Assembly: GCF_029502005.1 (NCBI RefSeq)
Contig: NZ_JAMQOT010000003.1
Span: 186,001 to 250,000, forward strand
Origin: Natrinema salsiterrestre
GTDB taxonomy: Archaea > Halobacteriota > Halobacteria > Halobacteriales > Natrialbaceae
DNA length: 64,000 nt
Direction of reading: 5' to 3'
The translations under genes and the position numbers were made by a program. The notes under the pieces were generated by a model that did not search any database, was not told where the DNA came from, and was given only the letters and a program-made list of their open reading frames with translations. Below, one piece after another: positions 30,541 through 31,487 of this stretch. Every line of letters begins with the position of its first letter. The first letter of the stretch is position 1.

Positions 30541-30549
30541 AGATATAAG
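30541..30549 (+). promoter_or_regulatory. TATA-like element upstream of candidate RNA
   Basis: AGATATAAG lies about 25-30 bases upstream of the first base of the predicted structured RNA at 30574. That is the usual distance from an archaeal TATA box to the transcription start. Confidence 0.4.
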
Positions 30550-30573
30550 TCACATTAGATCAACTATTAGAAC

Positions 30574-30656
30574 GGAAGCCGGTCTCCGTCGGGGGCGTCC
30601 GCAAACGTCCCGGGTGTGCACACCACCCGAGACTGGCTTCCCAACCCGCAAGGGTT
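30574..30656 (+). ncRNA. candidate structured RNA: three-way junction plus GNRA hairpin
   Basis: A 13-bp helix P1 forms between GGAAGCCGGTCTC (30574-30586) and GAGACTGGCTTCC (30629-30641), with one G-U pair. It encloses two hairpins stacked without linker. P2 is GGGGCGT (30592-30598) with ACGTCCC (30605-30611) around a six-base loop. P3 is GGGTG (30612-30616) with CACCC (30624-30628). P1 is followed by a fourth hairpin, AACCC-GCAA-GGGTT (30643-30656), closed by a GNRA tetraloop. A TATA-like element is suitably upstream. I could not match it to a riboswitch, SRP RNA, RNase P RNA or H/ACA RNA. It may be an independent small RNA or a leader for the downstream zinc-finger gene. Confidence 0.5.
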
Positions 30657-30767
30657 CAGGAGCCATGCTTACGTTCAAACCAACGGGATATAAACGTCCC
30701 GCACGCACTCGGAATCGACCGACACGACCAGCCTCGAGTCCAGTTTTGGGGTCTCAACGGATGGGGT

Positions 30768-30944
30768 GTGATCGCCGTGTGTAGCGAGTCCGAGGGGGAC
30801 GACGGATCCTCGTCGATCCCCGACTGCTCACACTGTGGAGAGCCGGTCCTGTTCGCCGTCGTCACCGGCCCCACCACCGGGACCGTCGAGCCCTGTGGCT
30901 GTTCCGTGCCGCCGGACCTGTTCGCGGAGTTGCGGGAGGAGTAG
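30768..30944 (+). CDS. small zinc-finger protein
   Basis: A 58-residue protein starting at GTG 30768 or GTG 30777. It has an IPDCSHCGEP knuckle and a second VEPCGCSV cluster about 30 residues later, giving two cysteine pairs for one zinc site, and a short helical tail FAELREE. A GGATATAAACG element at 30687-30697 is about 72 bases upstream. A hairpin (30947-30968) follows the stop directly. No known function. Confidence 0.6.
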   Translation: MIAVCSESEGDDGSSSIPDCSHCGEPVLFAVVTGPTTGTVEPCGCSVPPDLFAELREE

Positions 30945-31190: not shown

Positions 31191-31487
31191 ATGGGAAACA
31201 TCGCACACCGTCCGGGTCGAAACGAATCTGCGGGGGAGGAGGTCACCCTCACGGTCGACGGTCACGGACGGGTTACGCTTCCGAAGGGAGTTCGAGAGCG
31301 ATTGGGTATCGAACCGAACGATCGAATTTCGGCCACGCTCATCGGATCCGTCCTCGAAATCACGCCGAAGCCGAGGTCGGAGTTGCAGACGGCGACAGCA
31401 GAGCGTGGCGAGTGGGCGAATTCGACGCCGATCGATGCGGGAGAAGCGCTTTTCGGATCGATGGACTCTGACGAAACGACGGAATGA
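31191..31487 (+). CDS. AbrB/SpoVT-type antitoxin or regulator
   Basis: A 98-residue protein with a single swapped-hairpin AbrB domain (about 17-62): VTLTVDGHGRVTLPKGVRERLGI followed by a second beta strand pair. The C-terminal 35 residues would bind a toxin partner. AGGTGATC, a strong match to the haloarchaeal 16S anti-Shine-Dalgarno, lies just upstream of the ATG and fixes the start. Such proteins usually pair with PIN-domain (VapC) toxins; only a remnant of one seems to follow. Confidence 0.87.
   Translation: MGNIAHRPGRNESAGEEVTLTVDGHGRVTLPKGVRERLGIEPNDRISATLIGSVLEITPKPRSELQTATAERGEWANSTPIDAGEALFGSMDSDETTE

Follow-up and report, generated by a model that had tools for sequence, protein, structure and literature searches.

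The window analysed here, a stretch of 64,000 nucleotides from the haloarchaeon Natrinema salsiterrestre, contains on its plus strand two small overlapping ORFs preceded by a TATA box and a structured RNA element. The following features are referred to in the text, with positions counted from the first letter of the window.

30543 to 30548, plus strand: ATATAA, the TATA box of the leader promoter, kept as CAGTAGATATAAG in almost every copy
30572 to 30667, plus strand: whole leader element, from P1 to the AUG, as delimited by the class model R3
30574 to 30586, plus strand: 5' arm of helix P1 (GGAAGCCGGTCTC), from the fold, with two-sided changes in 8 of the 12 modelled P1 pairs
30592 to 30611, plus strand: hairpin P2, from the fold and covariation, with class-wide conserved adenines in the loop right before its 3' strand
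30612 to 30628, plus strand: hairpin P3, from the fold and covariation, with a nearly invariant GUG-loop-CAC tip and covarying lower pairs
30629 to 30641, plus strand: 3' strand of P1, the shared middle strand (GAGACTGGCTTCC), whose final 8 nt can pair with either of two partners according to the arm permutation
30643 to 30656, plus strand: hairpin P4 (AACCC-GCAA-GGGTT), from the fold, with two-sided changes in all 5 of its pairs
30659 to 30665, plus strand: 3' arm (GGAGCC plus the A of the AUG), which according to the permutation test can pair with 30634-30640 once P1 is open
30665 to 30784, plus strand: first ORF, 39 aa, Arg-rich, beginning with MLTFKPTGYKRPARTRNRPTR, its stop overlapping the start of the zinc-finger gene
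30684 to 30701, plus strand: hairpin P5 (CGGGA-TATAAACG-TCCCG), at +20 of the first ORF, with a covarying pair and invariant wobble positions
30777 to 30944, plus strand: ORF for a small CxxC...CGC zinc-finger-like protein of 55 aa, with a GTG start and an alternative GTG at 30768

Folding of positions 30571-30660 rendered a minimum free energy of -49.1 kcal/mol (z -4.70), and none of 200 shuffled sequences was equally stable; these and all other folding energies given here refer to 1 M NaCl, not to molar KCl. The fold reproduces exactly the shape proposed in a preliminary description of this DNA, namely a 13-bp P1 with one G-U pair (30574-30586 paired with 30629-30641) enclosing two abutting hairpins, followed by the AACCC-GCAA-GGGUU hairpin. 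That description took the stretch for a candidate new structured RNA, a view that is borne out by strong covariation, by membership in a multi-copy family and by the lack of an Rfam match at gathering and at relaxed thresholds. Rfam 15 at gathering thresholds gave zero matches in the whole window, two matches at chance level (E 7.7 and E 9.4) were all that relaxed thresholds returned around the element, and a tRNA/tmRNA scan with ARAGORN detected no tRNA. In the window, R3 gave a single sense match, at 30572-30667 (84.3 bits, E 1.5e-16), where R1, a model from the own genome, gave E 3.9e-28. The element exceeds the limits first assigned to it, since it extends to the AUG at 30665, exactly where the leader terminates, and then to the hairpin at 30684-30701. 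The GNRA hairpin that had been pointed out is present at 30643-30656, but it is the tip of an alternative start-codon hairpin rather than a feature of its own, and it is missing in many distant members.

Covariation in P1-P4 was assessed in 44 divergent sequences, in which 86.5% of the cells were paired, a proportion that fell to 25-52% when the partners were slid by 1-3 columns. Instead of breaking P1 or P2 without compensation, which the preliminary description had named as the observation that would speak against the RNA, the homologues showed two-sided changes in 19 of the 28 P1-P4 pairs, amounting to 60 such cells versus 14.3 in shuffles (0/500). G-U cells outnumbered A-C cells (108 versus 50) and the sense strand scored higher than the antisense strand with R3 (84.3 versus 19.5 bits), which indicates that function resides in the plus strand; an antisense reading was rejected for its lower score and the G-U asymmetry. 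Variation is almost absent at the GUG/CAC tip of P3, at the adenines that end the loop of P2, at the UUC in the 3' strand of P1 and at the AUG. Invariant unpaired bases are few in the leader, unlike in classical aptamers.

The sequence GGCUUCC (30635-30641) of the P1 3' strand is complementary both to GGAAGCC in the 5' arm and to GGAGCC (30659-30664), located directly before the AUG. Since this strand is shared, the closing helix P1 and a start-codon helix would be mutually exclusive. In two loci (L111 and L116) the three strands have changed together (GGAAACC/GGUUUCC/GAAACC-AUG and AGAAACC/GGUUUCU/GAAACC-AUG), and the same relation is found, with other sequences, in distant relatives (GGUCUUCC/GAAGACC-AUG, GGGUUUC/AACCC-AUG and GGCUUUCU/GAAAGCC-AUG). 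The AUG marks the end of the 3' arm in haloarchaeal families whose arms are quite different in sequence, as in GGUCUU/AAGACC-AUG, GGGUU/AACCC-AUG and GGCUUUC/GAAAGCC-AUG. In an alignment-free permutation, in which arms were swapped between loci (15 distinct middle strands, 5000 permutations), pairing of the 5' arm was 15.67 with its own middle strand versus 11.0 (sd 0.57) when permuted, and that of the 3' arm 10.67 versus 8.36 (sd 0.43), with counts of 0/5000 for each arm that are not strict probabilities because the permuted sequences are related. An earlier alignment-free test of alternative pairings had rendered 0/500. When the alternative helix was tested for covariation column by column in a MAFFT alignment, the result was not significant, we think because MAFFT puts variants that have GC-AUG in place of GCC-AUG in the wrong columns; the alignment-free tests were used in place of this one. 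The P1 state is predicted to be more stable than the start-codon state by a mean of 8.6 kcal/mol (range 1.1 to 20.4, energies for 1 M NaCl), and the latter would therefore need a helper.

A TATA-like element upstream had also been noted, and ATATAA is indeed located 26-31 nt before P1, with a similar spacing in 42 distant members, in which A/T reaches its highest share, 0.88-0.93, between -29 and -26 relative to P1. This is the usual spacing of archaeal TATA boxes relative to the transcription start. The 5' end is therefore predicted to lie at or beside P1, giving a leader of ca. 95 nt.

As to the genes downstream, the preliminary description had the RNA precede a small zinc-finger gene; the CxxC gene is found at 30777-30944, but what the RNA abuts is the first ORF, which had been missed. 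Among the 81 copies from Natrialbaceae in which the first ORF could be read, 72 are followed by a C(P)XCG pattern (two CxxC/CxC motifs in less than ca. 70-90 aa). Stop and start codons overlap or nearly touch at 71 of the 72 loci with a zinc-finger ORF versus 22 of 140 control frames (the other two frames), a difference that is somewhat favoured because the candidate nearest to the stop was taken as the start of the second ORF, a freedom that the control frames lacked. More than one frame relation is involved, with the TGA within ATGA at 34 loci and the stop 5 nt inside the next ORF at 32 loci, and many second-ORF starts are preceded by a GGAGG-like sequence, which fits reinitiation. In the own genome, a CxxC-type ORF comes after 26 of the 28 leader copies. 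Two loci of this genome, L088 (C24) and L089 (C20), keep the RNA with no recognisable zinc-finger ORF and could be decaying copies. The zinc-finger-like proteins follow the pattern CPxCGxPV...TGPxxGTxxPCGC, and the small CxxC/CGC products probably bind zinc; a search of Pfam and NCBIfam with these proteins rendered no match above cut-off.

Conserved structure runs on into the first ORF in the form of P5, whose pair +22/+35 is GC in 64, AU in 10, AC in 4 and GU in 1 of the 81 copies. In codons 7-13 of this ORF, which contain P5, the third positions are invariant and the first and second positions vary, the opposite of a protein constraint. A constraint on the peptide was ruled out by this pattern, and a second TATA promoter was ruled out as well, since distant members bear at this place hairpins whose loops are not TATA, and since the arms covary. 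P5 is present in part of the distant members, in which hairpins were counted in 17 of 42 versus 8-13 in control windows, a weak difference, and folding of +13 to +46 gave a clearer one, with a mean z of -1.08 versus -0.31 to 0.21 in windows further on. In two loci (L124:1601-2011 and L129:1607-2080) the first-ORF peptide (PGFKRPDR and TGYKHPAR, respectively) shares its reading frame with a protein of zinc-ribbon type (DRWKWVCPNGHRTWEPTNNHFWCQSC), which suggests that the short first ORF of the Natrialbaceae may be a split-off N-terminus.

The covariance model R1 detected 28 good copies in the own genome, all of them with E <= 3.7e-12, and a 29th, weak match that lies on the strand opposite to a true copy. 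This genome holds 17 occurrences of the motif GGGATATAAACGTCCCGCACG and none of its reversed control. Comparison by blastn with 100 related genomes rendered strong matches of ca. 200 nt in many of them, with several per genome. In a pattern scan of species genomes, the named organisms among the matches listed were all Natrialbaceae, including Natrinema, Natrialba, Halopiger, Halostagnicola, Natrarchaeobius and one Natrialbaceae MAG. The copy in the window is syntenic in two relatives, and a unit of ca. 520 bp that reaches beyond the zinc-finger gene is duplicated in one relative with 84% identity. Next to the locus, the segment 31079-31535 (ca. 457 bp), with an AbrB/MazE-like gene (31191-31487, PF04014), is absent from the syntenic place in the relative G010 (L055), where its flanks join directly, which corresponds to an insertion or deletion adjoining the switch locus.

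Two further covariance models made from diverse copies, R2 and R3, detected members in 111 and 142, respectively, of the 391 haloarchaeal genomes sampled. Those found by R3 are spread over 58 of the 86 sampled genera and nine families (f1, f4, f5, f6, f7, f10, f12, f14 and f17), and in a sample of 247 genomes from the phylum the 13 with matches were all within the same order. The distant members inspected are built alike, from the TATA box through P1, P2 (whose loop is rich in A at its end) and P3 (with the GUG/CAC tip) to the 3' arm and the AUG; the members of this wider class may all be homologous or may in part have arisen by convergence. The downstream genes vary, including SWIM zinc-finger proteins in Haladaptatus, CxxC proteins and others with no Pfam match. 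Many of the distant downstream proteins are small and contain cysteine, and a Cys-cluster regular expression, too crude to give an enrichment figure, flagged 19 of 41 loci; in Haloferax, two C(P)XCG motifs have been described in 49 of ca. 400 micro-proteins (PMC11241148). Leaders followed by a CxxC protein and then by a conserved ORF of ca. 300 aa were observed in several families (L331:1593-3007, L318, L339, L320 and L341); one scanned protein from this set had a weak match to the RAMP superfamily, and the arrangement is possibly a mobile cassette.

In Haladaptatus plasmids (L355/W03 and others), blastn located the unit of RNA and SWIM gene at 194 places over 22 plasmid records, with a maximum of 31 on a single plasmid. 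Among the plasmid records listed, no annotated feature lies beneath the leader matches, and no member was found on plasmids pNRC200 and pNG700. The first protein after the distant member L124 can be aligned almost from end to end with a PHROG family, a match that led to the pleolipoviruses HRPV9 and Humcor2. Both carry ACGGAAG...CUUCCGUG...ACGAAAGCC-AUG and, at +19 to +20, a hairpin CGGGG/CCCCG or GGGGG/CCCCC, with modest R3 scores of 25.0 (HRPV9) and 21.9 bits (Humcor2). In each case the leader precedes an uncharacterised ORF; in HRPV9 (L351:1386-1902) the leader adjoins a PhiH1-like repressor gene, and in Humcor2 (L352:1296-1782) it is close to CxxC genes and an integrase. The presence of the leader in these viruses suggests that the switch may travel with mobile elements. 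When viral contigs were scanned, neither the P5 motif nor any of three related proteins was detected.

These results indicate the existence of an uncatalogued, multi-copy class of RNA leaders with a switch-like anatomy. The preliminary description had considered either a leader or an independent small RNA, of which the leader is upheld by its fixed place at the AUG, the distance between TATA and P1, the covarying start-codon arm and the coupling of the ORFs, and the independent small RNA is less likely. We therefore regard with high confidence the element as a structured leader that acts in cis. That it works as a two-state translational switch for genes of small, often zinc-binding proteins is in our view probable, although at a clearly lower level of confidence. 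Comparison among copies supports the structure P1-P5, the promoter spacing, the position at the AUG, the potential for both pairings and the ORF overlap. What we infer is that the two states both occur in vivo, with A as the ON and B as the OFF state, and that a common factor acts as the trigger and not the product of each gene.

According to this model, transcription would start at or beside P1 and produce a two-gene mRNA with the leader, the Arg-rich ORF of 39 aa and the zinc-finger-like protein of 55 aa. In state A, which would be favoured both by energy and by the order of synthesis, P1 would close the three-way junction and leave free the strand before the AUG, so that ribosomes could start the first ORF, initiating without a Shine-Dalgarno helix, and the zinc-finger gene would be reached by termination-reinitiation at the overlapping stop and start codons. 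In state B, the 3' strand of P1 would leave the 5' arm and pair with the strand that ends at the AUG, so that P4 would grow into a longer hairpin in which the start region would be buried. Several events could bring about the shift from A to B, such as a signal sensed at the junction, a bound factor, a change in the ionic conditions, or a 5' arm that is lost, captured or trimmed. Our confidence in any particular trigger is low. The fact that the RNA is shared and the downstream proteins are unrelated points to a shared signal rather than to separate autoregulation. A more ambitious version, in which the leaders would be a haloarchaeal class of ligand- or ion-sensing riboswitches (for zinc or salt, for instance), spread by viruses and plasmids, with dozens of chromosomal copies and a regulon of small zinc-binding proteins, appears to us rather doubtful.

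Other explanations have to be weighed against the two-state switch. It can be the case that the leader responds to a protein, in such a way that a common RNA-binding protein, or each zinc-finger product, binds the junction and represses or activates translation, like in ribosomal-protein leaders; the switch would be the same as in the preferred reading and its trigger would be different. Invariant loop bases are few, yet the near-invariant P3 tip and P2 adenines fit recognition by shape, zinc fingers may bind RNA (PMC11241148) and an S15 leader has been predicted in Halobacteria (PMC7247131), but the same RNA stands before unrelated families (CxxC, SWIM and others), which makes autoregulation by each product unlikely, though a common regulator may be at work. 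On the whole we consider this alternative possible, with tentative support. A constitutive leader, protecting the 5' end or setting the rate of initiation, with a similarity of arms that has no role in switching, would agree with the much higher stability of state A and with the non-significant column test. Against it, swapping the arms between loci weakens the alternative pairing (the 0/5000 count given above, among related sequences), and changes in the three strands occur jointly, for which reason we hold it unlikely.

The compact and stable fold, the promoter-like element of its own and the many copies, whose arms could cross-pair, would also be expected of a small RNA acting in trans, processed or terminated from this region. 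The element, however, always ends at the AUG, its last arm covaries with P1, and conserved structure (P5) runs on into the ORF, making such an RNA very improbable. Still less credible is a dispersed, MITE-like mobile DNA repeat with palindromes that would simply resemble RNA structure. The 28 copies per genome, the duplicated unit of ca. 520 bp (84% identity) in one relative and the very high copy number on Haladaptatus plasmids would be in line with it, but not the asymmetry between G-U and A-C, the compensatory changes, the synteny of the window locus with relatives and the retention of the coupled ORFs. The two-state leader thus continues to be the reading that we prefer.

The number of cis-regulatory RNAs known or predicted in archaea is low (PMC7247131), and as of 2021 the fluoride riboswitch was the sole natural archaeal riboswitch determined experimentally (PMC8241225). 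A literature search, with subscription papers mostly outside its scope, rendered no description of the element. The leader resembles translational riboswitches, both the bacterial classes and the archaeal fluoride riboswitch, in its location in the 5' leader, its junction fold, the strand with two potential, mutually exclusive partners and the predicted burying of the start in one state, and the conserved structured domain expected of a riboswitch is found in the predicted 5' leader, to judge from covariation, TATA spacing and the position of the AUG. On the other hand, it differs from them in having no known ligand, few invariant unpaired bases and no Rfam match, and in acting at the start codon without a Shine-Dalgarno helix; the Shine-Dalgarno motif is absent from most leadered haloarchaeal transcripts (PMC3986360). 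With the ribosomal-protein leaders, including the S15 leader predicted in Halobacteria (PMC7247131), it shares the condition of structured leader, in that case also haloarchaeal, and the possibility of a protein ligand, but its many copies per genome and its lack of an Rfam match set it apart. No ribosomal-protein genes were found downstream in the more than 100 loci read, which encode small CxxC, SWIM and unknown proteins instead. Because there is no Rfam fit and the ribosomal-protein context is absent, we do not claim a riboswitch or a protein-responsive class, and speak of a switch-like anatomy.

The small CxxC/CGC product downstream recalls the C(P)XCG zinc-finger micro-proteins of Haloferax (PMC11241148, PMC10716476), but those papers describe proteins, and the present element is an RNA leader with a coupled first ORF. 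In their early regions, the pleolipoviruses HRPV9 and Humcor2 share with the present locus the leader, the 3' arm at the AUG and the hairpin at +19 to +20, and HRPV9 also a related N-terminus of the first ORF; they differ in their weaker model scores (25.0 and 21.9 bits) and, in the case of HRPV9, in the adjoining PhiH1-like repressor gene. The element would represent a known kind of regulator, in a new class, in a domain where few are known. If this is true, few RNA regulons of archaea would be larger, given its presence in 58 of the 86 genera sampled, with 28 copies in one genome, and in viruses. The leader also draws attention to many small genes that had been overlooked, and it would make testable both the control of initiation by RNA structure in haloarchaea without Shine-Dalgarno sequences and the regulation of many haloarchaeal zinc-finger micro-proteins that are as yet unexplained.
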